A model generated the notes under the pieces. It saw only the letters and a list, made by a program, of their open reading frames with translations. It ran no database searches and was not told the origin of the DNA. The position numbers were made by a program, and so were the translations under genes. From positions 62,001 to 126,000 of the forward strand of contig NZ_BLPG01000001.1 of the NCBI RefSeq assembly GCF_011764445.1: 64,000 nt of DNA. The letters are read 5' to 3'. Within the stretch, counting starts at the first letter, position 1. Every line of letters starts with the position of its first letter. Below are positions 28,036-53,307 of this stretch, one piece after another. The stretch comes from Phytohabitans rumicis (lineage in GTDB: Bacteria; Actinomycetota; Actinomycetes; Mycobacteriales; Micromonosporaceae).

Positions 28036-28078
28036 TCATCCAAGATCCGTGGCTTGACGGCGCCGACCAACCAAACCA

Positions 28079-28119: not shown

Positions 28120-28728
28120 GTGCGAGGGCTCTTGGTGGACTACGGTGGCGTGCTCACCACGAGCGTCTTCGCGTCGTTCGCGGCCTTCTGCCGGGCCGAA
28201 GGGCTGCCGGACGACCGGGTCGTGGACCTGCTGCGCGGGCCGGCTCAGCCGCTGCTCGCCGGCCTGGAGGACGGCACGCTGCCGGCCGCGTCGTTCGAGG
28301 CGGAGTTCGCGGCGCTGCTGGGCGTACCGGCCGGCGACCTCATCGCGCGGATGATGGCCGGCGCGACCGTCGACCGCCGCATGGCCGCCGCCGTGCGGCA
28401 GGCCCGCCGCCACGGCATCCGCACCGGGCTGGTCTCGAACTCCTGGGGCCTTTCCGGGTACGACCAGCCGCTGCTCGCGGAGCTGTTCGACGGCGTGGTG
28501 CTGTCCGCCGAGGCGGGCGTGCGCAAGCCCGCCCCCGAGATCTACCGGCTCGGCGCCGCGGCGGTCGGGCTGCCGCCGCGGGACTGCGTGTTCGTCGACG
28601 ACCTCGGCGGCAACCTCAAGCCGGCCGCGCGGCTGGGCATGGCGACGGTGCGCCACGACAACACCGCGGACACGATCGCCGCGCTGGAGCGGCTCTTCGG
28701 CAGGAAACTGGAGGACCCATGCGACTGA
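28120..28728 (+). CDS. HAD-like hydrolase resembling the N-terminal domain of ACAD10
   Basis: A 202-residue HAD-superfamily protein. Motif I is LLVDYGGVL with Asp7, but the second aspartate of typical phosphatases is Gly, as in ACAD10-type domains. Motif II serine is in LVSNSWG, the lysine in RKPAPEIYRL, and motif IV is FVDDLGGNLKPAARLGM, very like the ACAD10 HAD domain and the epoxide hydrolase N-domain. GTG at 28120 follows GGAGG. It heads an operon with an SDR and an MDR enzyme. A role in removing phosphate from a phosphoacyl-CoA or phospho-acid is inference from the ACAD10 parallel. Confidence 0.8.
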   Translation: MRGLLVDYGGVLTTSVFASFAAFCRAEGLPDDRVVDLLRGPAQPLLAGLEDGTLPAASFEAEFAALLGVPAGDLIARMMAGATVDRRMAAAVRQARRHGIRTGLVSNSWGLSGYDQPLLAELFDGVVLSAEAGVRKPAPEIYRLGAAAVGLPPRDCVFVDDLGGNLKPAARLGMATVRHDNTADTIAALERLFGRKLEDPCD

Positions 28729-29459
28729 CCGGGAAGACGGCGCTGGTCACCGGCGCGACCGGCGGCATCGGCGCGGCGACCGCGCGCCGGCTGGCCGCCG
28801 AGGGCGCGGCGGTCGTGGTCACCGACCTGGACGCGGGGCGGTGCGCCGCGCTCGCCAAGGAACTGCGCGAGTCCGGGGCGAGCGCGGAGCCGTACGCGCT
28901 GGACGTCTCCGACGAAGGGGCGTGGGAGCGGGTCGTCGCCTCCCTGGGCGGCCTGCACGTGCTGGTCAACAACGCCGGCATCGGCCACTTCACGACCGTG
29001 GAGTCGGAGACGCTGGAGACCTGGCAGGAGGTGGAGGCGGTCACCCAGCGCGGTGTGTGGCTGGGCATGAAGCACGCCGGCCCGGTCATCGAGGCCACCG
29101 GCGGCGGCGCCATCGTCAACGTCTGCTCCATCTTCGGCACCGTCGGCGGCTTCGGGTCGAGCTTCTCGTACCACGCGGCCAAGGGCGCGGTCCGGGTGAT
29201 GACCAAGAACGCCGCCCTGCACTGGGCGGAGCGCGGCGTCCGCGTCAACTCGGTCCATCCCGGGTTCATCGCGACCGGCACGCTGATCGAGCGCACCAGC
29301 GGCACCCCGCGGGAGCGGGCGATGGTGGACGGTACGCCGATGCGCCGCCTCGGCCGGCCCGAGGAGGTGGCGGCGGCGATCGCGTTCCTGGCCAGCGAAG
29401 ACGCGACGTTCATGACCGGCAGCGAGCTCTACGTCGACGGCGGCTGGACGGCCCGGTGA
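28719..29459 (+). CDS. SDR-family oxidoreductase (hydroxyacyl-CoA/cyclic alcohol type)
   Basis: A 246-residue SDR. Cofactor loop TGATGGIG (about residues 12-19), NNAG, catalytic Tyr151/Lys155 in SYHAAKGAV and a C-terminal DGGWTAR. The VCSIFGTVGGFGSSF segment before the tyrosine resembles cyclohexanol and hydroxysteroid dehydrogenases. ATG at 28719 lies inside the end of the HAD gene (10-bp overlap), so the two are coupled. It likely oxidises a hydroxyl group of the pathway substrate. Confidence 0.85.
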   Translation: MRLTGKTALVTGATGGIGAATARRLAAEGAAVVVTDLDAGRCAALAKELRESGASAEPYALDVSDEGAWERVVASLGGLHVLVNNAGIGHFTTVESETLETWQEVEAVTQRGVWLGMKHAGPVIEATGGGAIVNVCSIFGTVGGFGSSFSYHAAKGAVRVMTKNAALHWAERGVRVNSVHPGFIATGTLIERTSGTPRERAMVDGTPMRRLGRPEEVAAAIAFLASEDATFMTGSELYVDGGWTAR

Positions 29460-30505
29460 CCCTGGGTTCAGTGACCAGCCGGGAGGTCTGGCCGGTCGCG
29501 TACCCGCGGGGCGAGGTGCGGCCGGCGGACTTCCGGCTGGTCGACGTGCCGGTGCCCGAGCCGGGTACGGGCGAGGTGCTGGTCCGCAACACGTGGACCT
29601 CGGTCGACGCCGCGCTCCGGCTGCGGCTGCGCGAGACGGCACCGCCTGGGTACTTCCCGGCGTTCCCGCTGGGACGACCGCTGGACGGAGTCATGACGGT
29701 CGGCGAGGTGGTGGCCTCCCACGCGGACGGCTTCGCCGCGGGCGACACGGTGTGGCACGCCGCCGGCTGGCGGGACTACGCGGTCGTCGCGGCCGGTCAG
29801 CCCGCGCTCGGCGGCGTGGGCACGCTGCGCCGGCTCGACGTGCGGGCCGCGCCGGCGCAGGCGTACCTCGGGGCGCTCGGCGCCAACGGGCTCACCGCGT
29901 ACGCCGGCCTGCTGCACGTGGCCGGGCTGCGCGACGGCGACGTCGTGTGGGTCTCCGCCGCGGCCGGCGCCGTCGGCAGCCTCGTCGCCCAGATCGCGAA
30001 GCTGCGCGGCCACCGCGTCATCGGCAGCGCCGGCTCCGCCGCGAAGGTGCGCTACCTGCTGGACGAGGTCGGCGTGGACGCCGCGTTCGACTACCGCGCC
30101 GGCCCGCTCCCCGACCTGCTGGCCGAGGCGGCACCGGACGGCGTCGACGTGTACTTCGACAACGTGGGCGGCGACCACCTCCGCGCCGCGATCGGCGCGC
30201 TGCGCCCGCACGGCCGCGTCGCGATCTGCGGCATGATCTCCGAGTACGCGGCGGAGCGGTCGGCGCCAGGCCCGGACAACCTGATGCTGGCGGTCACCAA
30301 GAGCCTGACGATCCGCGGGTTCCGGGCCAGCGCGATGGCGCACCTGATACCCGAGATGACCCGGGAGGTGGGCGCCTGGATCCGCGCCGGGCGGCTGCGC
30401 TACCGCGAGACGGTCGTCGACGGCCTGGAGCGGGCGCCGGCCGCGCTCGCCGGCCTGTTGCGTGGCGACAATACCGGCAAGACCCTGGTACGGATCACGC
30501 GGTAA
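29456..30505 (+). CDS. Zinc-independent MDR enoyl/alkenal reductase (CurA/PTGR-like)
   Basis: A 349-residue medium-chain reductase. No zinc cysteines are present; the NADPH loop is VSAAAGAVGSLVAQIAKL, followed by YFDNVGGDHLRAAI, a signature of leukotriene B4 12-hydroxydehydrogenase/CurA-type double-bond reductases. The family reduces alpha,beta-unsaturated ketones or aldehydes. GTG at 29456 overlaps the SDR stop. The 3' end overlaps the convergent EthD-type gene by 11 bp. Confidence 0.85.
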   Translation: MTLGSVTSREVWPVAYPRGEVRPADFRLVDVPVPEPGTGEVLVRNTWTSVDAALRLRLRETAPPGYFPAFPLGRPLDGVMTVGEVVASHADGFAAGDTVWHAAGWRDYAVVAAGQPALGGVGTLRRLDVRAAPAQAYLGALGANGLTAYAGLLHVAGLRDGDVVWVSAAAGAVGSLVAQIAKLRGHRVIGSAGSAAKVRYLLDEVGVDAAFDYRAGPLPDLLAEAAPDGVDVYFDNVGGDHLRAAIGALRPHGRVAICGMISEYAAERSAPGPDNLMLAVTKSLTIRGFRASAMAHLIPEMTREVGAWIRAGRLRYRETVVDGLERAPAALAGLLRGDNTGKTLVRITR

Positions 30506-31191: not shown

Positions 31192-31196
31192 TCCCT

Positions 31197-31210
31197 TCCT
31201 GAATTCAGTT
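31197..31210 (-). promoter_or_regulatory. AACTGAnnTCAGTT-type operator, SnoaL-EthD unit
   Basis: TCCTGAATTCAGTT, 12 of 14 matches to the shared dyad, six bases upstream of the SnoaL-like start codon. Its last base is also the first base of the tetR stop anticodon region, so the operator is embedded in the 3' end of the regulator gene. Confidence 0.6.
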
Positions 31211-31824
31211 CAAGATAGCACCATGCGCAAGGCGCAGCCGGCGTAGAAATCGCGGACCGCCGCCAGGTCCAGCCGCCCGCCCCAGCGGTACCACCGCCAG
31301 ACGCTCACCAGCAGGCCCAGCACGGCCTGGGCGAGCGTGTGCGGGTCGCGGGCCGGGAACGCGCCGGCCGCCATCCCGCGGTCGAGCAGCCCGGTCCAGG
31401 CCATCTCGATGTCGTGCACCAGGGCGCGGGCGGCCTGCCGGGACTCCTCCTCGCGGGCCGAGGCGCGCGGGATCTCCAGCAGGTCGATGTGGTTCTGCAG
31501 GATGCGCATCTGCAGGACCTCGCGCTCGGTGACGTCGAACGCGCCGGCCAGCGCCGCCCGCAGGCCGTCCGCCGGGTCGACGCCCGCGGTCGCCTCCAGG
31601 AAGCGCTCGTGGGAACGGTGCAACTCGGCGTGCATGATGGTCAGCAGGCAGTGCGCTTTGGACTCGAAGTAGTGGTAGAGCGCCGTCTGCCCGATACCGA
31701 CCCGGTCGGCCACGGTCGACCACTTCGTCGCCTCGTACCCGAACTCGCCGAAGCAGCCGACGGCGGCCGCGAGGATCGCGGCGCGCTTGGACCGCGGGCC
31801 GGCGTCACTGTCCATGATGGTCAT
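31210..31824 (-). CDS. TetR-family regulator, paralogue A of the catabolic regulon
   Basis: A 204-residue TetR protein. The HTH region (ATKWSTVADRVGIGQTALYH then YFESKAHCLLTIM) is nearly identical to that of the TetR at 44333, and it begins with the same PRSKRAAIL. The C-terminal helices (RILQNHIDLLEIPRASAREE) form the ligand pocket. It overlaps the SDR gene upstream by ATGA and so shares its promoter at the 32634 operator. It probably binds AACTGAnnTCAGTT and responds to a CoA-ester or pathway intermediate. Confidence 0.88.
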   Translation of the reverse strand: MTIMDSDAGPRSKRAAILAAAVGCFGEFGYEATKWSTVADRVGIGQTALYHYFESKAHCLLTIMHAELHRSHERFLEATAGVDPADGLRAALAGAFDVTEREVLQMRILQNHIDLLEIPRASAREEESRQAARALVHDIEMAWTGLLDRGMAAGAFPARDPHTLAQAVLGLLVSVWRWYRWGGRLDLAAVRDFYAGCALRMVLS

Positions 31825-32618: not shown

Positions 32619-32633
32619 CGCCACCCTTGCCAA

Positions 32634-32647
32634 AACCGAGTTCAGTT
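32634..32647. promoter_or_regulatory. AACTGAnnTCAGTT-type operator between SDR-tetR and the importer operon
   Basis: AACCGAGTTCAGTT, 13 of 14 matches to the shared dyad. It lies 16 bp upstream of the SDR start and about 80 bp upstream of the solute-binding protein gene, so it could repress both divergent operons. Confidence 0.7.
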
Positions 32648-32728
32648 TGGTAACTTCCTCGAAATCTTAGCTAGCCGGGCCCCTGTCCAGCAAGAACGCT
32701 AAGCCGGTTTCACTTTAGGGAGCCGAGT

Positions 32729-33790
32729 ATGGGAGCCAATTCGAGACGGCGCGGGGGCTTTCCCCTCGTCCTGCTGCTGATAACCACCCTGATGGTCGCC
32801 GCGTGCGGCGGCGGCAACGACGACAAGTCCGACACCGTGGTGTCGGCCGACGCCGGCATCGACGCGCTGGTCGCCGCGGCCAAGAAGGAAGGCAAGGTCA
32901 CCATCTACTCGGCGCAGGGCCTGGACGCGCTGAACAACTTCGCCGCCGAGTTCGAGAAGGAATACCCGGGGATCGACGTGGAGACCGTCCGCGGCGTCGA
33001 CGGCGACCTGAGCGTCAAGGTCGAGACCGAGTTCCAGACCGGCAAGGGCATCGCCGACATGTACGTCAACGCGAGCCTGTCCTGGGTCCAGACGCAGGCC
33101 AAGGCGGGGCGCTTCCTCGCGCCGACCGGCCCCGAGCTGACCGGCAAGGGCACCTACGACGCCAAGCAGTACGTCCACGACGGCAACTACTTCGAGACCA
33201 ACTCGGCCGTGCTCACGTTCGGCTGGAACACCAAGCTGTACCCCAAGGGCCTGACCGACTACCCGGACCTGCTCGACCCGGCGCTCACCGGCAAGATCGG
33301 CGTCATCGAGCCCACCGCGCCGTCGATCGTCGACTTCTACCTGTGGCTGGAGGAGACGTACGGCGCCGACTTCGTGACCAAGCTGGCCGCGCAGAAGCCG
33401 CGCATCTACCCCAGCTCGCTGCCGATGGGTGAGGCGATGGCGTCCGGCGAGATCGCCGCCGGCAGCTTCGTGGCGCCGATCGCGCTGGTGCCCGCCAAGG
33501 CCAAGGGCGCACCGGTGGACTTCAAGATGCCGCCGAGCGGCGCCTGGGGCTCCCGGTACTACGGCATGGTGCTCAAGAGCGGCCCGCACCCGAACGCCGC
33601 CCAGCTCCTGGCCAACTTCATGGTGACCGAAAAGGGGCAGGAGCTGATCACCCCGTCGGCCGGTTCCGTGCTGGCCAACGTGCCGGGCACGCTGATCACG
33701 AACGACAAGGTCCGCCTCCAGGACCCGTCCAAGCTCACGCCGGACGCCGTGGCCGCGTACCAGAAGAAGTGGAAGTCCCTCTTCCAGTAA
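32729..33790 (+). CDS. ABC importer solute-binding lipoprotein (iron/Fbp-type family)
   Basis: A 353-residue lipoprotein with signal peptide and lipobox LMVAAC (Cys near residue 26). The mature part begins VVSADAGIDALVAAAKKEGK and has VTIYSAQGLDALNNFAAEFEKE split over strands typical of family-1 ferric-iron/thiamine-type binding proteins. The tyrosines used for ferric iron are not clearly placed, and the gene sits at the head of a catabolic operon, so an organic acid ligand is more likely than iron. It delivers substrate to the two genes downstream. Confidence 0.85.
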   Translation: MGANSRRRGGFPLVLLLITTLMVAACGGGNDDKSDTVVSADAGIDALVAAAKKEGKVTIYSAQGLDALNNFAAEFEKEYPGIDVETVRGVDGDLSVKVETEFQTGKGIADMYVNASLSWVQTQAKAGRFLAPTGPELTGKGTYDAKQYVHDGNYFETNSAVLTFGWNTKLYPKGLTDYPDLLDPALTGKIGVIEPTAPSIVDFYLWLEETYGADFVTKLAAQKPRIYPSSLPMGEAMASGEIAAGSFVAPIALVPAKAKGAPVDFKMPPSGAWGSRYYGMVLKSGPHPNAAQLLANFMVTEKGQELITPSAGSVLANVPGTLITNDKVRLQDPSKLTPDAVAAYQKKWKSLFQ

Positions 33791-33798
33791 GGATTCCG

Positions 33799-34938
33799 AT
33801 GTCCCAGGTGCGGATCGAGGGCCTGACCAAGCGGTTCGCCGGCAAGCCGCCGGCGGTCGCGGTGGACGGCCTGTCGCTGGAGATCGAGTCGGGCGAGTTC
33901 GTCGTGCTGCTCGGCCCCAGCGGCTGCGGGAAGATCACCACGCTGCGTAGCCTGGCCGGCCTGGAAACGCCCGACGAGGGACGTATCTCGCTGGGCGGCC
34001 AGACCGTGCTGGACGTGCGCGCAAAGGTCAACCTGCCGCCGAACAAGCGGCGGATCGGGATGGTCTTCCAGTCGTACGCCCTCTGGCCGCACATGACGGT
34101 ACGCCGCAACATCGGGTACCCGCTGCGGGCCCGCCGGGTGGGCCGCGACCAGTCGCGGGAGTGGATCGAGGAGACGGCGCGGTTGGTCGACTGCGCCGGC
34201 CTCCTCGACCGCTACCCCGCGCAGCTGTCCGGCGGGCAGCAGCAGCGGGTCGCACTGGCCCGCGGCCTGGTGGCCCGGCCCGACCTGGTCCTGTTCGACG
34301 AGCCGATGAGCAACCTCGACGCCCGCCTGCGCGACCAGGTCCGCGCCCAGCTGCACGAGCTGCACGCGCGGTTGGGCTTCACCGCCGTGTTCGTCACCCA
34401 CGACCAGAGCGAGGCGCTGGCCCTGGGCGACCGCCTGGCCATCATGCGGGCGGGCCGGATCGAGCAGCTCGACACGCCGCAGCGGGTGTTCGAGGAGCCG
34501 GCCACCGAGTACGTCGCCGGGTTCATCGGCATGTCGAACCGGCTGGTCCTGCGCCGCACCGGCGGTGGCTGGGCCGCCGGCGACGAGCCGGTGACCGGCG
34601 ACATTCCGGTGCCGCGGGAGCACGCCGAGGTCGCGGTCCGGCTGCGCCCCGACGACGTGCTGCTGGCCCAGCCCGACCAGCGGCCGCCCCCGGGCGCGAT
34701 CGGCCTGCCCGCGCAGGTCGTCGACGCGCAGTTCGGCGGCCGGCACATGGACGTGGTGGTCTCGGCCGGCGGCACCCGCCTACACGCCAAGACGCCCCTG
34801 GCCGGGAACGCCTGGGTCCGGCACCTCGCGGCGGGAGAGCCGGTGACGGCCTGGTACGCCGACCAGGCGGCCATCTACTACGGCGCCGGCGACGAACGGA
34901 TCGCCGGGCACCGGCCGGCCGCGGCAGTGGGGGCGTGA
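33799..34938 (+). CDS. ABC importer ATP-binding protein with altered Walker A
   Basis: A 379-residue PotA/FbpC-type ATPase with a C-terminal TOBE-like domain. Walker A reads GPSGCGKITTLR: the residue after the essential Lys45 is Ile46 (codon ATC, 33934-33936) instead of Thr/Ser, which normally holds Mg2+. All else is canonical: GMVFQSYALWPHM, LSGGQQQRVALA, VLFDEPMSNLDARLR, VFVTHDQSEAL. Either a C-to-T sequencing error or a genuine impaired ATPase. ATG at 33799 is nine bases after the binding-protein stop; the stop overlaps the permease ATG. Confidence 0.85.
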   Translation: MSQVRIEGLTKRFAGKPPAVAVDGLSLEIESGEFVVLLGPSGCGKITTLRSLAGLETPDEGRISLGGQTVLDVRAKVNLPPNKRRIGMVFQSYALWPHMTVRRNIGYPLRARRVGRDQSREWIEETARLVDCAGLLDRYPAQLSGGQQQRVALARGLVARPDLVLFDEPMSNLDARLRDQVRAQLHELHARLGFTAVFVTHDQSEALALGDRLAIMRAGRIEQLDTPQRVFEEPATEYVAGFIGMSNRLVLRRTGGGWAAGDEPVTGDIPVPREHAEVAVRLRPDDVLLAQPDQRPPPGAIGLPAQVVDAQFGGRHMDVVVSAGGTRLHAKTPLAGNAWVRHLAAGEPVTAWYADQAAIYYGAGDERIAGHRPAAAVGA

Positions 34939-36628
34939 TGAGCGCACCCGCGATGCCCCTGGCGCTGACCCGCACGCGGCGGCTGCTGCCGCGGCTCGCC
35001 GCGCTCGCGTTCCTCGCCGGGATCGGCTACCTGGTGATCGCGCCGCTCGTCGGCCTGCAACGGCTGGCCTTCGAGGACGGCGCCCGCGGGTACGAGGCCG
35101 CCTTCGACCGGCCGGAGGTGGCGCAGACGCTGCGTACGACGGTCGGCCTGGCGCTCGGTTCGCTGGCCATCGCGCTGGTCCTCGGCACGCTGCTGGCCTG
35201 GGCGGCGACCCGGCTGCCACCGCGGCTGCGGCTGCTGCGGGCGCTGCCGATCCTGCCGATCGTCGTGCCGGCGGTGGCCGCGGTGACCGGCTGGGCGTTC
35301 CTGTTCTCCCCCGCCCCGGCTACCTGAACGCGCTGCTGCGCAACCTGCCCTGGTGGAACCACCTGCAGGAGGGGCCGGTCGACGTCTACTCGCTGCCGTG
35401 GATCGTGGTCATCACCGGCTTCGGGCTGACCGCGTTCGTCTACCTGTTCGTCAGCTCCGGCTTCGCCGGCATCAACTCCGAGCTGATCGAGGCCGCGCAG
35501 GTGAGCGGCTCGTCGGCGGTCGGCGTGTTCTTCCGGGTCACGCTGCCGCTGCTGCGGCCGAGCCTGGTGTACGGCGGTTTCGTCGCGCTGCTGCTGGGCC
35601 TGGGGCAGTTCACCGGCCCGCTGCTGCTGGGGCGCACCGGCGGCATCAACGTGCTCACCACCGACATGTACGTGGCGGTCTCGCAGAGCCCGATCGACTA
35701 CGGCCGGGCGGCCGCGATCGGGTCGCCGCTGCTGTTGTTCGGCATCGCGGTGGTCGTCCTGCAGAAGGTGATCCTGGGCGACCACAGCCGGTTCGTCACG
35801 CACGGCGGCAAGGCGTTCCGGGCCACGAGCCGGCCCTCGCGGCTGGCCGTCGCCGGCATCCTCACCTACAGCGTGCTGGCCCTCGGGCTGCCGCTCGGCG
35901 CGCTCGCGCTGGTGTCGCTGTCCCCGTTCTGGAGCGGCTCGGTCGACCCGGGCGGCTTCACGCTGGCCAACTTCCGGCAGGTGTTCGCCGAGTCGGGCAT
36001 CACCGACGCGATCGTCAACAGCCTCACCATCTCGGTCATCTCCGTGGCGATCGCCCTCCCGGTGGGCTTCGTCGCCGCCTCGCTGCTGCTCAAGGGGCGC
36101 AAGTTCCCGATCATCCGGGCCGCCGTCGACTTCATCGTGGCCATGCCGCTGGGCATCCCCGCCGTGGTCTTCGGCGCCGGCTTCCTGCTCACGTACAGCC
36201 GGGAGCCGTTCATCCTGTACGGCACCCGCGAGGTGATCGTGCTGGTCTACGTGACGCTCATGCTGCCGTTCACCACCCGGATGCAGCTGGCCGGGATGGT
36301 GGCGCTCGGCGACGCGTACCAGGAGGCGTCGCGGACCAGCGGGGCCGGGCCGGTGCGGACCACCACGGAGATCATGCTGCCGCTGCTGCGCCCCACCATC
36401 GCCGGGGCGGCGGCGCTGATGTTCGTGCTGCTGACCCACGAGTTCACCGCGTCGCTGCTGGTCCGGGCGCCCACCACGCAGGTCATGGGCACCATCCTGT
36501 TCGACTACTGGGGCAACGGCTCGTACCCCCTGGTCGCCGCGATCGCCCTGGTCATGACGCTGGTGACGGGGGCCGGCGTGTTCGTGGCGATGGCCGTGGC
36601 CGGCTCCGACATCTTCGACAAGTTGTGA
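34938..36628 (+). CDS. ABC importer two-module permease (FbpB-like; one frameshift)
   Basis: A fused permease of about 563 residues with two binding-protein-dependent transport modules and about 12 helices. Each module carries an EAA loop: ELIEAAQVSGSSAVGVFFRV and DAYQEASRTSGAGPVRTTTE. As written it stops at 35327; adding one C to CCCCC at 35308-35312 gives LFSPRPGYLNALLRNLPWWN and joins both halves. ATG at 34938 overlaps the ATPase stop. It imports the substrate presented by the lipoprotein at 32729. Confidence 0.85.
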
Positions 36629-36629
36629 C

Positions 36630-41062: not shown

Positions 41063-41146
41063 CCGCCCCGCAGCCGCCAGCGGTTGCCGGCGAAATGCCC
41101 CCTATCGCGATCCCGACAGACTCCGGGTGCGCGCGGGTCGCCTGGG

Positions 41147-41452: not shown

Positions 41453-41453
41453 C

Positions 41454-42473: not shown

Positions 42474-43925
42474 GCGGCGCCCCGGTCGGCCAGCGACGCG
42501 GCCAGCGAGCGGGCGCCGGCCCGGGACAGCTTGCCCACCGCCGTCTGCGGCAGGTCGGGAACGGCGAAGACGTACTCGGGCCACTTGGCCTTGGACAGGC
42601 CCTGCTCGTGCAGGTGCGCGGTCACCTCGCCGAGCGGCAGGTCGCCGCCGTCGGCGACGACGACCAGCGCGGCCGCCCGTTCGCCGAGGATCTCATCGGG
42701 TACGGGGCCACGCACACCTGCGCGACCCGGGGTGGCTGGCGATCGCCCGTTCCACCTCGGTGATGTCGATGTTGCGGCCGCCGCGGATGATGACGTCCTT
42801 CTCCCGTCCCATGATCGTGACGGTGCCGTCGTCGCCGACCACCAGCAGGTCGCCGGTCGGCAGGAACCCGTCGGCGGTCAGCTCGGGCGGATCCACCTTG
42901 CCGCCGCGGGCGTACCCGAGAAACAGGGACGGGCCGCGGACCTGAGCCTGGCCGACCTCGCCGGCGCGGACCGGGCGGCCGTCGCCGCCGACCGCGCGCA
43001 GCTGCGTGCCCGGGAACGGGCGGCCGTCCCGGCCGAGCCGGATCTCGGGTGGGTCCTCGGGCGCGGGTGAGGTGTGCCCGAGGCACTCGGACATCCCGAA
43101 GACCCGCAGGATCCGGGTGCCCAGCGACCGCTCGGCGCGGCCGAGCGCGCCGGCGTTCATCGGGCCGCCGCCCACCGTCATGGCCCGCATGCCGTGCAGG
43201 GCGCCGGATCCGGCCGCGGCCGCGCCCAACTGGAGCGCCATCGTGGGTACGCACATGGTCCAGCGGGCCTCGGTCTGCGCCATCCGGGGCAGGGTGGCCG
43301 CCGGGTCCCACCGGCCCCACAGCACCAGCGGGCCGCCGAGCAGCAGGGACAGGTAGACGCCGAAGCAGTACGCCGCCGTGGAGGACAGTGGCACGATCGC
43401 CGCGACCGCGTCGCCGGGGCGCAGTCCGTTGACGGCGATGGTCTGCTCGGCGGCGTACCGGAGCGCGGCCTCGGACTGCACGACGCCCTTGGCCCGGCCG
43501 GTGGAGCCGGAGGTCAGCCCGATCAGGACACCGCCGCCCCACCGCGACACATCTCGCCGGCCCGCCGTGGTACGCGCCACCCAGCCGTCGAGCGCCGGAG
43601 CGTCGCGGTCCCCCGGCACCGCCCACTCGGCCAACGCGGCCGGCTCGGCCACCACGACGTCCGGCTGGATGTCCTCGAACGCGGCGGCGAACTCGGCGGC
43701 CGTGCTGTGCCGGTTGACGAGGGCGAGCGTCCCCCCGCTCATCCCGACCGCGAGCGTGGCCGCGACCGTACGCCAGGAGTTGTCGGCCTGGAGCAGCACG
43801 GTGCCGGAGAGCGTGCCGGCGTCCGCGTGCCGCAGCAGGTCCCGCGCGGTGTGGGAGCCGGAGTCGTCGATCACGGCCACGGCGTCCGGGTCCCGCCGCC
43901 GGAACTCGCTCACTACCTGTCGCAC
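42470..43925 (-). CDS. Acyl-CoA synthetase, ANL/AMP-forming family (two frameshifts)
   Basis: A ligase of about 485 residues. The phosphate loop is LIGLTSGSTGRAKGV, then VFGMSECLGHTSP, the TGD in LPTGDLLVV and the hinge IMGREKDVIIRGGRNIDITE; the catalytic C-terminal lysine is in PQTAVGKLSR. Two single-base deletions separate the N- and C-domains: near 42697 and in GGGG 42729-42732; restoring both yields SHPRVAQVCVAPYPDEILGE. Short for the family, mainly in the N-domain. It activates a carboxylic acid with ATP and CoA and is the entry enzyme of the regulon. GTG start at 43925. Confidence 0.82.
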
Positions 43926-43934
43926 TTCGTGCCC

Positions 43935-44279: not shown

Positions 44280-44292
44280 CGGAGCCTCCCGT

Positions 44293-44306
44293 AACTGAGT
44301 TCAGTT
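44293..44306 (-). promoter_or_regulatory. AACTGAnnTCAGTT operator, ligase operon
   Basis: AACTGAGTTCAGTT, a perfect match to the 6-2-6 dyad, 14 bp upstream of the SnoaL-like start. The wider repeat TAACTGA...TCAGTTA (44292-44312) gives a possible second registration. The best example of the motif in the window. Confidence 0.75.
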
Positions 44307-44332
44307 CAGTTACTAGGACTGTAACGCCGCTG

Positions 44333-44959
44333 CTACGGCCGCACAACCCGGACGCAGGCGTCCTCGATCAGGTCGCGCACCTCGGCCAGCGGGGTGGTGC
44401 CGCGCGGGCGGTACCAGCGCCACACGCTGACGATCATGCCGAGCATGGACAGCGCGAGGGTACGGGCGTCGCGGCGCACGAACACGCCCGCGTCCATCCC
44501 CCGCTGCACCAGCTCGGTCCACGATGTCTCGATCTGCTGCACCAGCTCCCGGGCTGCCGCGCGCTCGGTCTCCTCCCGGGCGGACGCGCGCCGGTTGGCC
44601 AGCAGGTCGACGTTGTTCTCCAGGATCCGCATGCGCAGCACGTCGTGCCCGGACACGTCGTACGCGGCGCGCACGGCGGCCCGCAGCGCGGCCATCGGGT
44701 CGGTCTCGCCGGCGGTCGCCTTGACGAACATCTCGTGCGAGCGCTGCAACTCCATCCGCATGATGGTGAGCAGGCAGTGCGCCTTGGACTCGAAGTAGTG
44801 GTAGAGCGCGGTCTGGCCGATGCCGACCTGGTCCGCCACCGCCGACCACTTCGTCGCGTCGTACCCGTTCTTGCCGAAGCTCTTGATCGCCGCGGACAGG
44901 ATCGCGGCACGCTTGGAGCGAGGCCCCTCGTCCGGTTCTACGATCCGCGTCGCAGGCAT
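44333..44959 (-). CDS. TetR-family regulator, paralogue B of the catabolic regulon
   Basis: A 208-residue TetR protein. The HTH DATKWSAVADQVGIGQTALY and YFESKAHCLLTIM are almost identical to those of paralogue A at 31210, and both share the PRSKRAAIL start; the ligand domains differ more (RILENNVDLLANRRASAREE versus the A form). The two probably recognise the same operator but may sense different ligands. The gene has its own operator copy at 45005, implying autoregulation. Confidence 0.88.
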   Translation of the reverse strand: MPATRIVEPDEGPRSKRAAILSAAIKSFGKNGYDATKWSAVADQVGIGQTALYHYFESKAHCLLTIMRMELQRSHEMFVKATAGETDPMAALRAAVRAAYDVSGHDVLRMRILENNVDLLANRRASAREETERAAARELVQQIETSWTELVQRGMDAGVFVRRDARTLALSMLGMIVSVWRWYRPRGTTPLAEVRDLIEDACVRVVRP

Positions 44960-45004
44960 CTAAGCTCCCCGAGTTGTCCGTCTTGGAACGACAGCGTAGA
45001 CGCG

Positions 45005-45018
45005 ACCTGAACTCGGTT
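45005..45018 (-). promoter_or_regulatory. AACTGAnnTCAGTT-type operator upstream of TetR B
   Basis: On the minus strand AACCGAGTTCAGGT, 12 of 14 matches, 46 bp upstream of the regulator's ATG and just beyond the stop of the thiolase gene. Weakest of the seven sites together with 28079 and 31197. Confidence 0.55.
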
Positions 45019-45032
45019 CCAGTTGGCTCGCG

Positions 45033-46181
45033 TCAGAGGCGTTCGACGATGGTGGCGTTGGCCATGCCGCCGCCCTCGCACATGGTCTGCAGGCCGTACC
45101 GGCCGCCGGTGCGGCGCAGCTGGTGCACGAGCGTGGTCATCAGCCGGGCGCCGGTCGCGCCGAGCGGGTGCCCGAGGGCGATCGCGCCGCCGTACGCGTT
45201 GGTGCGCCCCGGGTCGGCGCCGAGCTCCTTCTGCCAGGCCAGGACGACCGGCGCGAACGCCTCGTTGATCTCCACCAGGTCGATGTCGTCGATGGCGAGA
45301 CCGGACTGGTGCAGGATCTTCTCGGTCGCCGGGATGGGGCCGGTGAGCATGAAGATCGGGTCGGAGCCGACCACCGCCATCGCGTGCACCCGGGCCACCG
45401 GCGCCAGGTTGTGGCGGCGTACGGCGTCGGCGGAGGCGACGAGCAGCGCGGCGGCGCCGTCGGAGATCGGGCTCGACACCGCCGCGGTGAGCCGGCCGCC
45501 GTCGCGCAGCGGCTTCAGGGCGGCCATCTTGTCCAGCGACGTGTCCGGACGCGGGCCCTCGTCGGCCGCCACGCCGAACGCGGGCACCACCTCGTCCGCG
45601 AACGCCCCGGCGGCCCACGCGGCGGCCGCCCGCTGGTGGCTGGCCAGCGCGAAGCGCTCCATATCCGGGCGGGACACGTCCCACTTCTCGGCGATCAGTT
45701 CGGCGCCGTGGAACTGGGACACCTCCTGGTCGCCGAAGTGGGTGCGCCAGCCCGTCCCGTCGTACGGGTTGCCCATCCCCTCGCGGGCGCCGAGGATCGC
45801 CGGGCTGGCGATCGGCACCAGGCTCATCACCTCCACCCCGCCGGCGACCACGAGGTCGGCGGCGCCGGACATGACCGCCTGGGCGGCGAAGTGCACCGCC
45901 TGCTGCGACGACCCGCACTGCCGGTCGATGGTGGTGCCCGGCACGTGCTGCGGCAGTCCGGCGGCCAGCCAGGCGGTGCGCGCGATGTTGCCGGTCTGCG
46001 CGCCGATCTGGCCGACGCAGCCGAGGTAGACGTCGTCCACCGCGCCGGGGTCGACCCCGGTCCGGTCCAGCAGCGCGGCGAGCACGTGCCCGGCGAGGTC
46101 CGCGGGGTGTACGCCGCTGAGCCCGCCGCCCCGGCGGCCCACCGGGGTGCGGACGGCGTCGACGATGAAGGCTTCCGGCAT
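45033..46181 (-). CDS. Acetyl-CoA acetyltransferase/3-ketoacyl-CoA thiolase
   Basis: A 382-residue thiolase. The nucleophile Cys89 is in DRQCGSSQQAVH, the histidine in LGHPLGATGAR and the second cysteine in MCEGGGMANAT. It cleaves a beta-ketoacyl-CoA with CoA to release acetyl- or propionyl-CoA. It is the last gene of an 11-gene operon that starts at 55221; four bases separate it from the enoyl-CoA hydratase upstream. The sequence is of the FadA5/FadA6-like actinobacterial type used for branched or cyclic substrates, by resemblance only. Confidence 0.9.
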   Translation of the reverse strand: MPEAFIVDAVRTPVGRRGGGLSGVHPADLAGHVLAALLDRTGVDPGAVDDVYLGCVGQIGAQTGNIARTAWLAAGLPQHVPGTTIDRQCGSSQQAVHFAAQAVMSGAADLVVAGGVEVMSLVPIASPAILGAREGMGNPYDGTGWRTHFGDQEVSQFHGAELIAEKWDVSRPDMERFALASHQRAAAAWAAGAFADEVVPAFGVAADEGPRPDTSLDKMAALKPLRDGGRLTAAVSSPISDGAAALLVASADAVRRHNLAPVARVHAMAVVGSDPIFMLTGPIPATEKILHQSGLAIDDIDLVEINEAFAPVVLAWQKELGADPGRTNAYGGAIALGHPLGATGARLMTTLVHQLRRTGGRYGLQTMCEGGGMANATIVERL

Positions 46182-46184
46182 CGG

Positions 46185-46955
46185 TTACTCCTTGCGTCTG
46201 TTCAGGAAGGCCGCCACGCCCGCGCGGCCTTCGGGGGAGATCGCGGCGGCGGCCAGCGCCTCCGCCTCGCGGTCCAGGTGTGCGTCCAGATCGGCGGACA
46301 GGCCGGCCGCGACGAGCCGGCGGGTGGCGCCGAAAGCGGCGGTGGCGCCGGTTGCCAGCGCCGCGGCGACCCGTTCCACCTCGCCGTCGAGGAGCGAAAG
46401 CGCCACCACCCGGGACACCAGCCCGATCTCGGCCGCCTCCCGGGCACCGAGCCGCCGGTTGGTCAGCAGCAGGTCCAACGCCCGCTTCGGGCCGACGAGC
46501 CGGGGCAGCGTCCAGGTCACGCCGGCGTCCGGGGTGTAGCCGATGCCGGTGTAGGCGCACACGAACGTGGCGTCGTCGGCCGCGATCGTGAGGTCGGCCG
46601 CGGCGGCCAGGCCCACGCCCGCGCCGGCCACCGCGCCGTGCACGGCGGCCACCAGCGGGGCGTCCAAGGCGGCGAAGGCCCGCAGCGCCGCGTGCAGGGC
46701 GCCGGTCACCTCGACCAGATGCCGGGCCAGCGCGTCACCCTCGAACGACGCGAACTCGCGCAGGTCGCCGCCCACGCAGAAGGATCGCCCGGCGCCGCGC
46801 AACACGACGGCGCGTACCCGATGCTGCTGGCACGCGGTCGCGGCCGCGAGCAGGCCGCGGGCGGTGGCCAGGTCGATGGCGTTGCCCCGGTCCGGGCGGC
46901 GCAGCCGCACGTGCGCGACGCCGTCGCGCACGTCGAGGGTGACCGGCTCGCTCAT
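46185..46955 (-). CDS. Enoyl-CoA hydratase/isomerase
   Basis: A 256-residue crotonase. Oxyanion-hole segments are GRSFCVGGDLREFA and VHGAVAGAGVGLAAAADLTI; the position of the first catalytic glutamate is YTGIGYTPDAGVTWTLPRL, where Asp-Ala replaces Glu-Gly, as in PaaG-like isomerases. It may isomerise or hydrate a double bond produced by one of the ACADs. ATG at 46955 overlaps the SDR stop. Confidence 0.85.
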   Translation of the reverse strand: MSEPVTLDVRDGVAHVRLRRPDRGNAIDLATARGLLAAATACQQHRVRAVVLRGAGRSFCVGGDLREFASFEGDALARHLVEVTGALHAALRAFAALDAPLVAAVHGAVAGAGVGLAAAADLTIAADDATFVCAYTGIGYTPDAGVTWTLPRLVGPKRALDLLLTNRRLGAREAAEIGLVSRVVALSLLDGEVERVAAALATGATAAFGATRRLVAAGLSADLDAHLDREAEALAAAAISPEGRAGVAAFLNRRKE

Positions 46956-47710
46956 CGCGCGGTCCAGCCGCCGTCGACGACCAGGACCTGCCCGGTGCAG
47001 TACGAGGAGGCGTCGGAGGCGAGGAACAGCAGCGCGCCGTCCAGTTCGCCGCCCTCGCCGCCGCGGCGCAGCATGGTGTTGCGCTCGACCCAGGCGCTGG
47101 AGCGGGTGTCCGCGAACAGCGCCTCGGTCATCTCGGACCGGAACCAGCCGGGGGCGAGGGCGTTGACGCGCACGCCGGTGCGGCCCCACTGGCCGGCCAG
47201 CTCGCGGGTCAGGCCGAGCAGCCCGGCCTTGGACGCGGCGTAGCTGGCGCCGCCCATCGGGGCGCCGGAGACCAGGCCGAGGATCGAGGCGACGTTCACG
47301 ATGCTGCGGCTGGTGTCCGGGCCCGCCGCCTCCGCCATGAGCCGGGCCAAATGGAACGGGGCGACGAGGTTGACCGCGAGCACGTCGGCGAAGTCGTCGG
47401 GGGTCTCGTCGGCCGCGCGCGGGGCGCCCGACATGCCGGCGTTGTTGACCAGCACGTCGAACCGGCCGGTGGCCGCCAGGACCGTCTCGACCAGCCGGGC
47501 GCGATCCGCCTCGCTGCTCACGTCGCACGCCACCGGGTGGATGCGGGCGTCGGCGGCGGCGACCTCGGCCAGCCGCTCCACCCGCCGGGCCGCGGCGAAG
47601 ACGGTCGCGCCGGCGGCGGCGAGGACCGCGGCGAAGCGGGCGCCGAGCCCCGACGACGCGCCGGTGACCACCGCTGTGCGGCCGCACAGCGAGAAGAGCT
47701 CACTGTTCAT
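46952..47710 (-). CDS. SDR-family oxidoreductase
   Basis: A 252-residue SDR: TGASSGLG at 17-24, NNAG, Ser142, Tyr157 and Lys161 (SYAASKAG) and DGGWTAR at the end. Its ALAPGWFRSEMTE stretch fits FabG/3-hydroxyacyl-CoA dehydrogenase-like enzymes. It would oxidise a hydroxyacyl-CoA before thiolysis. Overlaps of 4 bp on both sides place it in the 11-gene operon. Confidence 0.85.
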   Translation of the reverse strand: MNSELFSLCGRTAVVTGASSGLGARFAAVLAAAGATVFAAARRVERLAEVAAADARIHPVACDVSSEADRARLVETVLAATGRFDVLVNNAGMSGAPRAADETPDDFADVLAVNLVAPFHLARLMAEAAGPDTSRSIVNVASILGLVSGAPMGGASYAASKAGLLGLTRELAGQWGRTGVRVNALAPGWFRSEMTEALFADTRSSAWVERNTMLRRGGEGGELDGALLFLASDASSYCTGQVLVVDGGWTAR

Positions 47711-48477
47711 GACTCGACGCCGATGGGCAGCGCGAGCGCGCCGCCGTCGATGACCAGGGTCTGGCCGGTGATCCAGGACGAGGCGTCCGAGGCCAGGAAG
47801 ACGGCCGCGTGCGCGACGTCCTCCGGCGTGCCGAGCCGGCGCAGCGGCAGCTTCGCGGTCAGGATCGGCTCGCGTACCTCCCAGACCGCGCGGGCCAGCT
47901 CGGTCTTGATCAGGCCGGGCGCGATGGCGTTGACCCGGGCCTTGGGCCCCAGCTCGTACGCCAGCTGCCGGGTCATGTGGATCATGGCGGCCTTGGTGGC
48001 GTTGTAGTAGCCGATGTGCGGGTCGACGATCAGCCCGCCGACCGAGGCGATGTTGACGACGGCGCCGCCGTGCTCGGCCATCGACGCCTTCCAGGCGCAG
48101 CGGATCCAGGCGAGCATGCCGTACTGGTTGACCCGCACGGTCTTCTCCGCCCGCGGCAGGTCCAGGTCGATCAGGTCGCCGTGGTACGGGTTGGTGGCCG
48201 CGTTGTTGACCAGGATGTCGAGGCGGCCGAACCGGGCCATCGTCTCGTCCACACAGGACTGCGCCTGGTCCGGCTCGCCGGCGTTGGCGACCACCGTGTG
48301 CACGCCACCGGGCGCCTCGACCGCCTCCAGTGCGGCGCGGGCGGCGGCGAGGCCGTCGGCCTTGCGGGCGGCGAGGACCACGTGCGCGCCGGCCGCCCGG
48401 TACGCGTGCGCGATGGCCAGCCCGATGCCGCGGGACCCGCCGGTGATGACCGCGACCCGACCTTTTAGGACGGTCAT
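47707..48477 (-). CDS. SDR-family oxidoreductase
   Basis: A 256-residue SDR: TGGSRGIG at 12-19, NNAA instead of NNAG, Ser145, Tyr158 and Lys162 (YYNATKAAM). The TNPYHGDLIDLDL insertion after NNAA is typical of SDRs that accompany ACAD10/11-like genes in actinobacteria. It may supply the oxidation step on the 4- or 3-hydroxyacyl-CoA. Directly downstream of the ACAD at 48474, with a 4-bp overlap. Confidence 0.83.
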   Translation of the reverse strand: MTVLKGRVAVITGGSRGIGLAIAHAYRAAGAHVVLAARKADGLAAARAALEAVEAPGGVHTVVANAGEPDQAQSCVDETMARFGRLDILVNNAATNPYHGDLIDLDLPRAEKTVRVNQYGMLAWIRCAWKASMAEHGGAVVNIASVGGLIVDPHIGYYNATKAAMIHMTRQLAYELGPKARVNAIAPGLIKTELARAVWEVREPILTAKLPLRRLGTPEDVAHAAVFLASDASSWITGQTLVIDGGALALPIGVES

Positions 48478-49688
48478 GCCGCTTCCTCCTTGTACTTGGC
48501 CAGCTCCCGGCGCGCCACGGTGCGCAGGTGCACCTCGTCCGGACCGTCGGCGATGCGCAGCGCGCGGGTGATGGCGAACAGGCGGGCCAGCACGGTGTCG
48601 TCGCTGACCCCGGCCGCACCGTGCGCCTGCACCGCGCGGTCCACCACGCGGTGCGCCACCTGCAGGGCGGCCACCTTGATGGCGGCCACCTCCGTACGCG
48701 CCGCCGCGTTGCCCACGGTGTCCATCAGCCACGCCGACTTGAGCACCAGCAACCGCAGCTGCTCGACCTCGATCCGGCTGTGGGCGATCCACTCGCGTAC
48801 CACGCCCTGGTCGGCGAGCGGGCCGCCGAACGCCTCGCGGGCCAGCACCCGGCGGCACATCAGCTCCAGCGCGCGCTCGGCGAAGCCCACCGCCCGCATC
48901 GCGTAGTGCATCCGGCCCGGCCCGAGCCGCCCCTGGGCGAGCGCGAAGCCCTCCCCCTGCGCGCCCAGCAGGTTGGCGGCGGGCACGCGTACGTCGGTGA
49001 ACTGCACGTCGCCGTGCCCGAGCCGGTCGGTGTAGCCGAACATGGGCAGGTCGCGCAGCACCGTGATGCCCGGGGTGTCGCGCGGCACGAGCAGCATGCT
49101 CTGCTGGCGGTACGCCGGAGCGTCCGGATCGGACACTCCCATGAGGATGATCAGCGCGCAGTCCGGGTCGAGGATCCCGGAGGTGTACCACTTGCGGCCG
49201 TTGACGACGTACGCGTCGCCGTCCCGGGTGATCCGGGTGCGCAGGTTGCGCGGGTCGGAGCTGGCCACGTCCGGCTCGGTCATCGCGAAGCAGGACCGGA
49301 TCCGCGCCTCCAGCAACGGGCGCAGCCACCGGTCCCGCTGCTCGGGCGTGCCGTAGAGGGCGAGCAGCTCCATGTTGCCGGTGTCCGGGGCGGAGCAGTT
49401 GAAGACCTCCGGCCCGATGATGGACCGGCCGGCGATCTCGGCCAGCGGGGCGTACTCCAGGTTGGACAGTCCGGCGCCCCAGTCGCCGTGGGACATGAAC
49501 AGGTTCCACAGCCCTTCGGCGCGGGCCTTCTCCTTCAGCTCGCGCATGACCGGCGGGAGCGCGTGCGGGTCGTCGGCCGCGGCGAGCTGCTGGTCGTACA
49601 CCGGCTCGCCGGGGTAGACGTGCTGGTCCATGAAGGAGCGCATCCGGTCCTGCAGCTCCCGGGCGCGCGGCGAGAAGTCGAAGTCCAC
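48474..49688 (-). CDS. ACAD10/11-type acyl-CoA dehydrogenase family protein
   Basis: A 404-residue protein with RSCFAMTEPDVASSDPRNL and GRKWYTSGILDPDCALIIL, both diagnostic of the ACAD11-like group, and IADGPDEVHLRTVARREL at the C-terminus with Asp in place of the usual catalytic Glu. The GTG start at 49688 follows GAGGA. It sits eight bases after the APH kinase gene. With that kinase it forms the second kinase-ACAD pair of the regulon; the first is at 36630/37814. Confidence 0.87.
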   Translation of the reverse strand: MDFDFSPRARELQDRMRSFMDQHVYPGEPVYDQQLAAADDPHALPPVMRELKEKARAEGLWNLFMSHGDWGAGLSNLEYAPLAEIAGRSIIGPEVFNCSAPDTGNMELLALYGTPEQRDRWLRPLLEARIRSCFAMTEPDVASSDPRNLRTRITRDGDAYVVNGRKWYTSGILDPDCALIILMGVSDPDAPAYRQQSMLLVPRDTPGITVLRDLPMFGYTDRLGHGDVQFTDVRVPAANLLGAQGEGFALAQGRLGPGRMHYAMRAVGFAERALELMCRRVLAREAFGGPLADQGVVREWIAHSRIEVEQLRLLVLKSAWLMDTVGNAAARTEVAAIKVAALQVAHRVVDRAVQAHGAAGVSDDTVLARLFAITRALRIADGPDEVHLRTVARRELAKYKEEAA

Positions 49689-49696
49689 TGTGGTCC

Positions 49697-50659
49697 TCAG
49701 TCCAGTAGCTCGGCGGCGGTACGGATCATCGCGGCGATGGTGGGCGGCAGCCGTTCCTGGTCCGGGTCGTGGATCCGGCCCTCGCGGTGGCGGCGCAGGT
49801 TGTGGCCCATGATGGCGGCCATCTTCATCCGGCACAGCGCCTGGAACCAGGTGAGCGCCGGCGGCGGCGCGGCGCCGTCCAGGTAGGTGTCCAGCAGCTC
49901 CTTCTCCCCCGGCAGGCCCTCGACCGGCCGGCCGAGGGCGGGAAAGTTGCGGTGGTCGGCGAAGAGCAGGAACCAGCCCAGGTCGGTGCGCGGGTCGCCG
50001 ACCGTCCAGATCTCCCAGTCGACGACGGCGGCCACCCGCTCGTCTTGGCACAGCGTGTTGCCGAGCCGGAAGTCGCCGTGCACGAGCACGGGCGGCAGGT
50101 CCGTTGGCACGCCCTTCGCGAGCCGGCGCAGCAACGCCTCCGAGCCGGGCCGCCGCTCGTCGGGGACCGCGCGCATGGTGCGCGCCCACCGCGCAAGCTC
50201 CGAGTGCAAGGAAGGGCCCCCTGTTATCGCTTTTTGCATAGCAAGGTGCCCTTGCATGCACTCGATCTTGAGGGTGTGGAGGCGGTGCAGCACGCGGGCG
50301 GCGTCGAGCATGCGTGCCGCTAGGAGGGAGCCGGGCAGGTCGTGCGAGTCGAGGACCGGCTCCACGGCGTCGCCGTCGACGTACTCCATCGCGAACCAGG
50401 CCGGCTCCGCCTCGTCGACCACCACGACCTCGGGTACGGGCACCGGCGTACCGGCCAGGGCCCGCAGCACCCCAGCCTGGCGCAGCATGTCGTTGCGCCC
50501 AACCGGCCGTTCCGCGGGCGGCACCGCCTTGACCACGTACCGGCGCTCCCCCACCGGGACCGTGTACGTCAGCCCGGAGTGCCCGCCGGGCAGCGTGCGC
50601 AGCGGTCCCACCGGTTGCCCGGGAAAGGCGGCACGGACGCGGTCGGCCAGGTCGCTCAT
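49697..50659 (-). CDS. APH-type phosphotransferase, ACAD-associated, with palindromic insert
   Basis: A 320-residue kinase: RTLPGGHSGLTYTV loop, YVVKAVPP lysine, VLVHGDFRLGNTL catalytic loop and VVDWEIWTVGDPRTDLGW metal loop. All catalytic residues are intact, so it should be active. Between LHRLHTL and SELARWARTMRAVP lies an unusual stretch (IECMQGHLAMQKAITGGPS) encoded by a 62-bp palindrome, which replaces the normal linker. Probably phosphorylates a 4-hydroxyacyl-CoA, in parallel to the kinase at 37814. Confidence 0.85.
   Translation of the reverse strand: MSDLADRVRAAFPGQPVGPLRTLPGGHSGLTYTVPVGERRYVVKAVPPAERPVGRNDMLRQAGVLRALAGTPVPVPEVVVVDEAEPAWFAMEYVDGDAVEPVLDSHDLPGSLLAARMLDAARVLHRLHTLKIECMQGHLAMQKAITGGPSLHSELARWARTMRAVPDERRPGSEALLRRLAKGVPTDLPPVLVHGDFRLGNTLCQDERVAAVVDWEIWTVGDPRTDLGWFLLFADHRNFPALGRPVEGLPGEKELLDTYLDGAAPPPALTWFQALCRMKMAAIMGHNLRRHREGRIHDPDQERLPPTIAAMIRTAAELLD
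50202..50263. repeat. 62-bp palindromic element inside the APH coding sequence
   Basis: GAGTGC at 50202-50207 pairs with GCACTC at 50258-50263, and 21 of the first 26 positions of the two arms are complementary. It contains an AT-rich centre (TTATCGCTTTTTGCATAGC) unlike the surrounding coding DNA. The reading frame of the kinase continues through it. It looks like an inserted mobile palindromic repeat. Confidence 0.7.
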
Positions 50660-53303: not shown

Positions 53304-53307
53304 CGCC

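Follow-up and report, generated by a model that had tools for sequence, protein, structure and literature searches.

Two unlike kinase–acyl-CoA dehydrogenase pairs and a separate HAD protein in an apparent accessory catabolic regulon of Phytohabitans rumicis

The stretch of Phytohabitans rumicis DNA analysed here (the window: 64,000 nucleotides, bases 62001-126000 of contig 1) encodes a HAD protein and two pairs of adjacent APH-type kinase and acyl-CoA dehydrogenase (ACAD) genes, the three types of domain that are fused in ACAD10. The genome is 10.7 Mb in three contigs, the GC content is 71-75% and the relatives of the window proteins are actinobacterial. A codon-model gene call, followed by Pfam and NCBIfam comparison of a subset of genes, located the HAD, ACAD1/APH1 and APH2/ACAD2 genes where an initial annotation, made from the sequence alone, had placed them. 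They are surrounded by an ABC importer, a CoA ligase, a metallo-β-lactamase (MBL)-fold hydrolase, two TetR_C_24 regulators, several short-chain dehydrogenases/reductases (SDRs) and alcohol dehydrogenases (ADHs), two thiolases, two enoyl-CoA hydratases and two further ACADs. The five genes of primary concern are:

28120..28728, forward strand: HAD protein, EPHX2-N/TIGR02247-like, motif I DYGGV with the second Asp absent (Pfam, NCBIfam)
36630..37814, forward strand: ACAD1, divergent ACAD10/11-type ACAD retaining R626, H634, R637 and D753 (Pfam, residues, tree)
37814..38810, forward strand: APH1 kinase, ACAD11/LvaA type, 3′ end uncertain (Pfam, residues)
48474..49688, reverse strand: ACAD2, ACAD of the ACAD11 clade, H634 replaced by Tyr (residues, tree)
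49697..50659, reverse strand: APH2, remote kinase lineage, presumed α-C Glu replaced by Gln, R176 absent (residues)

The ACADs were compared at the functional residues of ACAD10/11, numbered according to mouse ACAD11. In the accessible part of PMC12440821, Ala or Leu at R626, H634 and R637 was the most disruptive to the ACAD activity of ACAD10/11, D753 is the catalytic base and R631 is general to ACADs, while the part of PMC11342911 available adds a conserved proline as an ACAD10/11 feature. At P462, R626, R631, H634, C635, M636, R637 and D753, ACAD1 carries P, R, R, H, C, M, R and D (THCMR) and ACAD2 carries P, R, R, Y, A, M, R and D (HYAMR). Both have the catalytic Asp in place of Glu (D753) and the phosphate-binding R626 and R637; H634 of the HCMR motif is kept in ACAD1 and is Tyr in ACAD2. 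None of R626, H634, R637 and D753 occurs in the window proteins ACADstd, ACAD3 and ACAD4. All four are kept in 15/15 ACAD1-type rows, a count that excludes mouse ACAD11, and in 5/5 further ACAD1-type loci; a motif expression missed the first motif in seven of 18 ACAD1-type loci, all of which keep the residues by alignment. R626, R637 and D753 are likewise kept in 30/30 ACAD2-type rows, five of which, exactly the five copies belonging to the islands described below, have Tyr at H634. Ordinary ACAD rows have Arg at 626 in 1/7 and at 637 in 0/7.

In an initial ACAD tree the ACAD1 clade stood next to ACAD2/ACAD11, weakly supported (83/43) and with a long-branch warning. The tree was rebuilt after the removal of six ACAD3/ACAD4 rows, the thinning of nine more and the addition of 15 outgroup rows. 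It unites the ACAD1-type and ACAD2-type proteins, mouse ACAD11 and 4hr3 in one 38-row clade (100/99) against 16 ordinary ACADs, of which 15 were chosen for lacking the motif. ACAD2 (51% identical to ACAD11) falls within the ACAD11 subclade and the ACAD1-type proteins (ACAD1: 32%) are sister to the ACAD2/ACAD11 part. ACAD11, 4hr3 and nine bacterial rows, seven of them from HAD-linked loci, form an 11-row branch (95/92). A phylogenetic placement of the ACADs near ACAD11, which had been named as a check on the initial annotation, is thus obtained. The basal branch of the ACAD2/ACAD11 clade is occupied by an ACAD from another locus (L137:3832; motifs HHSMR and YDGP), located near a kinase and an MBL gene.

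The tree and most of the residue checks support a predicted ACAD10/11 type for both ACADs. Two points weigh against this assignment: the proline at P462 is non-diagnostic, being present in 5/7 ordinary and 25/30 ACAD2-type rows (missing in five), and the trees contain no ACAD10, LvaA or LvaC sequences. If the ACADs were instead conventional 2,3-dehydrogenases, the APH proteins would have other targets, such as drugs or sugars, and APH(3′) and thiamine kinase models do appear among the NCBIfam matches of the kinases, every one well under cut-off. With Asp instead of Glu as the base, an Arg/His cluster, frequent kinase-ACAD adjacency and the lack of ACAD10/11 activity on plain acyl-CoAs in the accessible part of PMC12440821, this explanation appears very improbable.

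The two kinases share the catalytic residues D220, N225 and the Asp of the DWE motif. APH1 furthermore retains R176, which contacts CoA, and the Arg-Glu pair, so that all ACAD11 kinase residues examined are kept; the pair used is that at positions 83-84 of the ACAD11 chain, presumed to represent R86 and the α-C Glu. In APH2 and its four island homologs (5/5) the presumed α-C Glu is Gln, against Glu in mouse ACAD11 and five other printed rows, and R176 is lost (Ser or gap) in the same five rows and kept in the other 36. These five rows form a clade on a long branch of the kinase tree, and APH2 is 27% identical to the ACAD11 kinase. Judged by residues, pair 1 is the canonical and pair 2 the modified one, despite the closeness of ACAD2 to ACAD11. 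In each of the five islands compared, pair 2 differs from ACAD11 by Tyr at H634, Gln at the presumed α-C Glu and the loss of R176. The view of both pairs as ACAD10/11-like consequently holds for the two ACADs and APH1, and falters at pair 2, where APH2 belongs to a remote lineage and ACAD2 lacks H634.

The alteration of both the phosphate and the CoA site of pair 2, common to five islands, suggests that it probably takes a different substrate. With H634 and R176 missing, the interpretation of pair 2 as acting through a 4-phospho intermediate may not hold. One explanation, to which we assign a little less than an even chance, is that pair 1 constitutes the 4-hydroxyacyl-CoA system and pair 2 performs another dehydroxylation, Tyr standing in for the phosphate-binding His (the hydroxyl might be tertiary, on a ring or a 3/5-hydroxyl). 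The restriction of this Tyr to the five island copies among 30 ACAD2-type rows, the Gln in all five island APH2 rows, the loss of R176 from these rows alone and the long branch of the APH2 clade argue for it, against which ACAD2 retains R626, R637 and the catalytic Asp, so that elimination of phosphate by pair 2 is still likely. Pair 2 is, in either case, a natural variant at a residue whose loss ablates the ACAD activity of ACAD10/11, according to the part of PMC12440821 available, and raises the question of what else phosphorylate-and-eliminate chemistry can remove.

The initial annotation regarded the two pairs as a duplication. This is dismissed, as ACAD1 and ACAD2 share 36% and APH1 and APH2 28% amino acid identity, and the pairs have separate clades and histories. 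Not counting the window's own, matches to ACAD1 at ≥45% identity number 24 in 150 genomes of the order (one is partial), and a kinase neighbor is present in 17 of the 18 loci examined among these 24; a HAD gene is present in 0/18. Pair 2 belongs to an island which recurs in the genomes G021 and G087 and on plasmids of Rhodococcus qingshengii J1-2 and Streptomyces sp. NBC_01450. Among the island stretches read besides the window, only the Streptomyces copy holds both pairs; in G021 and G087 the ACAD1-type genes are on other contigs. ACAD2 is matched at E≤1e-180 in 2/396 genomes of the phylum, one being the window's own, and in 0/5 congeners, and in the order sample only G021 and G087, besides the own genome, reach 74% identity among the matches listed. 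The rarity and patchiness of the island indicate horizontal spread, and the region seems to be an accessory catabolic regulon spreading in this manner. The Streptomyces copy is on a megaplasmid (L126, NZ_CP109481.1) and the Rhodococcus copy on a plasmid of an activated-sludge isolate (L127, NZ_CP089607.1), both with operator sites, and the same 73% ACAD2 match is found on plasmid NZ_CP014942.1 of Rhodococcus sp. BH4. The P. rumicis genome also has a third pair of kinase and ACAD genes, at 8.91 Mb (L001, G000:C1:8906000-8922000), ordinary in its HHCMR motif and accompanied by an SDR; no HAD gene was found in this 16-kb stretch.

The initial annotation placed the HAD gene and both pairs behind one operator. 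The palindrome TGAACTNAGTTCA occurs at the following sites (no strand assigned):

28076..28090: operator of the HAD operon, the weakest, with three mismatches and 15.3 bits (pattern, weight matrix)
31199..31213: operator between TetR regulator 1 and a SnoaL-like gene (pattern, weight matrix)
32631..32645: operator between an SDR and the ABC/ACAD1/APH1 genes (pattern, weight matrix)
44290..44309: operator, two overlapping matches (pattern, weight matrix)
45007..45021: operator upstream of TetR regulator 2 (pattern, weight matrix)
55241..55255: best operator, at the head of the genes leading to pair 2, zero mismatches on one strand (pattern)
56081..56095: operator between a divergent SDR and ADH (pattern, weight matrix)

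The pattern TGAACTNAGTTCAGT has 15 window matches at ≤3 mismatches, in eight places, versus 0.45 expected, and 0/100 shuffles reach 15. At ≤2 mismatches, seven of the 12 matches in the whole genome are inside the window, in four places; a reversed control pattern has five matches genome-wide. At ≤2 mismatches, the related island stretches L102, L103, L126 and L127 contain 1, 1, 3 and 4 sites, where the null averages are 0, 0, 0 and 0.1; two loci that are not islands, L001 and L128, contain none at that threshold. With a weight matrix trained on the window and island sites, the HAD site being left out, the site at 28076 scores lowest of nine window matches (seven places) at or above its own score, against a Markov-null expectation of 0.067 per 64 kb. 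We take the shared operator to be real. Pair 1, however, lies 4 kb downstream of its operator, behind the ABC genes, and pair 2 4.6-5.6 kb downstream, so that the claim that both are behind the same operator presupposes long operons. Membership of the HAD gene in the regulon is likely, but is the least secure.

The HAD gene (PF00702) ends at 28728 on the forward strand and starts at 28120 or 28135, both GTG codons, of which the gene caller picked the latter; it is separated from pair 1 by approximately 8 kb and from pair 2 by approximately 20 kb. Its product contains the motifs DYGGV, in agreement with the DYG motif I reported initially, and VDDLGGN. The closest NCBIfam model, TIGR02247, matches at 96.8 bits, under its cut-off of 125.4, and as it matches weakly in 14/14 control genomes, the family name proves little; the best PDB matches are EPHX2. 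The first motif-I Asp is present and the second absent (DYGG), and the ACAD10 HAD likewise has no second motif-I Asp, as given in the accessible part of PMC11342911. The DYG motif was dismissed as proof of a link to ACAD10, given its occurrence in unlinked HADs as well.

With the window HAD as query, 61/150 genomes of the order match (65 places), own genome included. Among 40 of the 64 loci other than the window's own, not chosen by linkage and with a few stretches ending early at contig ends, 13 have an ACAD with the complete ACAD11 motif within approximately 7 kb, seven of them also with a kinase. Approximately 1.5/40 would be expected by chance, even at six such ACADs per 2.4 Mb, the extremes among the matches listed. 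Several observations weigh against a functional partnership of this particular HAD with the window pairs. The four related island stretches L102, L103, L126 and L127 contain no counterpart, and the tight link of the HAD to the cluster, as initially proposed, is thereby left unsupported; its candidacy as a core member of the regulon is dismissed. Neither the G021 and G087 genomes nor the Rhodococcus plasmid yielded a HAD above 38 bits; a 39% identical HAD is encoded on the Streptomyces plasmid, approximately 880 kb from the island and with no pair beside it. In the two plasmid hosts this search covered the plasmids, not the chromosomes. The five congeners gave only 37-45-bit matches. A 115-row HAD tree does not place the window HAD in the operonic HAD clade but in a long-branched group of 19 rows, in which linked and unlinked loci are mixed; the neighbor of its closest relative (L032, 50%) is a WS/DGAT-like gene, not a kinase-ACAD pair. 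Close relatives of this HAD at L032, L035 and L038 lie beside what we take to be a wax-ester synthase/DGAT gene, together with a conserved gene of obscure role.

The HAD might, on these grounds, have fallen under the regulon by chance, as an ordinary phosphatase of metabolism or an enzyme of dehalogenase fold unconnected with the kinases, an explanation with not quite even prospects. The lack of island counterparts, the position outside the operonic clade, the absence of such an ACAD from the examined stretch in 27/40 relatives (short contigs in a few cases) and the weakest operator favor it. Set against these are the missing second motif-I Asp, as in the ACAD10 HAD, the linkage of 13/40 relatives where approximately 1.5 are expected, and the two downstream genes of the HAD operon, the SDR at 28719 and the oxidoreductase at 29471, which have homologs in other islands. 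Since these neighbors have island homologs and the HAD has none, the HAD appears to have been recruited locally into an operon of the regulon; it would have joined this copy outside the core.

HADs of this broad family are supported as genuine partners of kinase-ACAD pairs in many Actinobacteria. A search with an alignment of 12 linked HADs and the window HAD, of which the 80 best loci were kept, yielded 34 loci with kinase and ACAD, 15 with an ACAD only, five with a kinase only and 26 with neither. In 36/80 of these best loci, mostly actinobacterial, the genes are collinear on one strand as HAD>kinase>ACAD, the domain order of ACAD10; none is fused, and the gap between HAD and kinase is ≤50 bases in 23/36 (starts being approximate). 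Both 34/80 and 36/80 are inflated by the linked-HAD query and the restriction to the best 80. The 49 ACAD-bearing loci include L165, which has one of the two motifs only, and the 36/80 count of gene order takes any ACAD2 match. In the HAD tree, 44 of the 53 members of one clade are linked HADs. L060, L066 and L067 (poor or incomplete) and L155, L191 and L193 (repeats of L033, L034 and L040) were dropped from this tree, and a few same or near-identical genomes (L047/L148) retained. The trio operons (L141-L220, e.g. L141, L143, L148 and L169) are widespread; in some, an SDR gene intervenes between those of the HAD and the kinase.

According to the accessible part of PMC11342911, the ACAD10 HAD restrains the kinase, has negligible phosphatase activity, and mutation of its Asp raises kinase activity; it has no homolog in the lva operon in the part of PMC12440821 available. 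The portions of these two papers accessible to us make no mention of bacterial HAD partners or trio operons, and no further paper on this topic stood among the titles listed; this is weak evidence of novelty, the subscription literature being thinly covered. A free bacterial HAD, apparently co-operonic with an unfused kinase and ACAD, makes the role of the ACAD10 HAD testable by adding or omitting one protein.

The remaining genes of the cluster, in order, are:

28719..29459, forward strand: SDR, a 73% homolog of which adjoins APH1 in the Streptomyces island (L126) (Pfam)
29471..30505, forward strand: ADH_N_2/zinc-type oxidoreductase, with homologs in two other islands (L127, L102), the L127 copy behind an operator-like site (Pfam)
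31210..31824, reverse strand: TetR regulator 1 (TetR_N and TetR_C_24) (Pfam)
32729..36628, forward strand: ABC importer, comprising solute-binding protein, ATPase and permease, frameshift near 35.31 kb (gene call, Pfam)
38811..40078, forward strand: FAD_binding_2 dehydrogenase, frameshift near 39785 (Pfam)
41454..42473, reverse strand: MBL-fold hydrolase (NCBIfam)
42470..43913, reverse strand: CoA ligase, frameshift near 42705 (profile match)
44333..44959, reverse strand: TetR regulator 2, a paralog of TetR regulator 1 (profile match)
45033..48477, reverse strand: thiolase, enoyl-CoA hydratase and two SDRs, with same-order homologs in L126 (similarity and reading of translations)
50656..51828, reverse strand: ACAD3, without the ACAD11 residues (residues)
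51834..53307, reverse strand: thiolase-like protein and OB-fold partner, the partner frameshifted (profile match)
53308..54095, reverse strand: enoyl-CoA hydratase family protein, frameshift near 53638 (profile match)
54133..55221, reverse strand: ACAD4, without the ACAD11 residues (residues)

The ATG of APH1 overlaps the ACAD1 stop codon, and its frame is open to 40078 with no stop, leaving the last residues unreadable; this is probably one of several frameshifts in the region. Five cluster genes change frame at least once where the Rhodococcus homolog aligns on (35310, 39785, 42705, 53638, 53077-53294 and the APH1 3′ end), and the third ACAD of the genome (8.91 Mb; L001 7805-7817) is similarly split, which looks like assembly indel errors rather than decay. 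A separate-looking aromatic cluster at 58778-62363, with VOC-type dioxygenase-like, FAH-like and FAD monooxygenase-like genes (labeled by eye), contains no operator match scoring at or above the HAD site in the weight-matrix scan. The MBL protein, initially called a lactonase, gives no lactonase assignment: it scores best in NCBIfam against a generic MBL model, with 159.5 bits (cut-off 525), and reaches just 39.5 bits (cut-off 360) with AidB, the AHL-lactonase model.

The explanation that we favor by a small measure for the whole is an accessory catabolic regulon in which two unlike kinase-ACAD pairs dehydroxylate hydroxyacyl-CoA, with the HAD acting in trans. The TetR-type regulators would probably act at the TGAACTNAGTTCA sites. 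A hydroxy acid may be imported by the ABC importer and activated by the CoA ligase, or alternatively derive from a lactone opened by the MBL enzyme. As suggested by residues and phylogeny, the APH kinase would phosphorylate the hydroxyl of the hydroxyacyl-CoA with ATP, and the ACAD, with FAD and no net oxidation, would expel the phosphate to give 2-enoyl-CoA. Such phosphorylate-then-eliminate chemistry is reportedly that of ACAD10/11 and LvaA/LvaC. The remaining ACADs, hydratases, SDRs and thiolases would lead into β-oxidation, and the thiolase/OB pair may perform a retro-aldol cut, by analogy to steroid side-chain aldolases. Pair 1 should act on ordinary 4-hydroxyacyl-CoAs; the substrate of pair 2 probably differs and could be bulkier or ring-bound. 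The initially proposed substrate, a lactone or 4-hydroxy acid, and the assignment of the two pairs to two chain lengths are conjectural, and none of the literature titles listed could be connected with the cluster as a clue to its substrate. The HAD would most likely act on the kinase step in trans, as a brake or weak phosphatase, by analogy to the ACAD10 HAD. The observation of the initial annotation is partly confirmed, and its interpretation partly supported. More tentatively, and with the balance of probability against it, the three domains of ACAD10 may reflect an old bacterial operon, HAD>kinase>ACAD, whose order is conserved in Actinobacteria and whose free HAD would brake or edit the phospho-acyl-CoA step in trans; the window would then hold rewired parts, with a distant HAD controlled by a common operator and a second pair remodeled at its active site for another hydroxyl.

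Compared with known systems, the window shares a kinase and an ACAD, the catalytic Asp and the Arg626/637 equivalents with ACAD11 (mouse 8V3U/8V3V, human 2WBI), whose order is matched by pair 2 (APH2 then ACAD2), pair 1 being arranged as ACAD1 then APH1; unlike in ACAD11, kinase and ACAD are separate genes, ACAD2 has Tyr at H634 and APH2 is without R176. As in the HAD-kinase-ACAD fusion ACAD10, all three domain types occur, here under one operator and with the HAD having the first motif-I Asp only, but as separate ORFs, and the likeness to the ACAD10 HAD is one of motif, not of sequence comparison. The lva operon of Pseudomonas putida (LvaA/LvaC), compared by description, likewise has separate kinase and ACAD genes and a CoA ligase, whereas the window has two pairs, an ABC importer, a thiolase/OB pair and TetR control. 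The actinobacterial HAD>kinase>ACAD operons comprise the same three families, and in some of them an SDR follows the HAD, as it does in the window; the window HAD, in contrast, is outside their HAD clade and not adjacent to a kinase.

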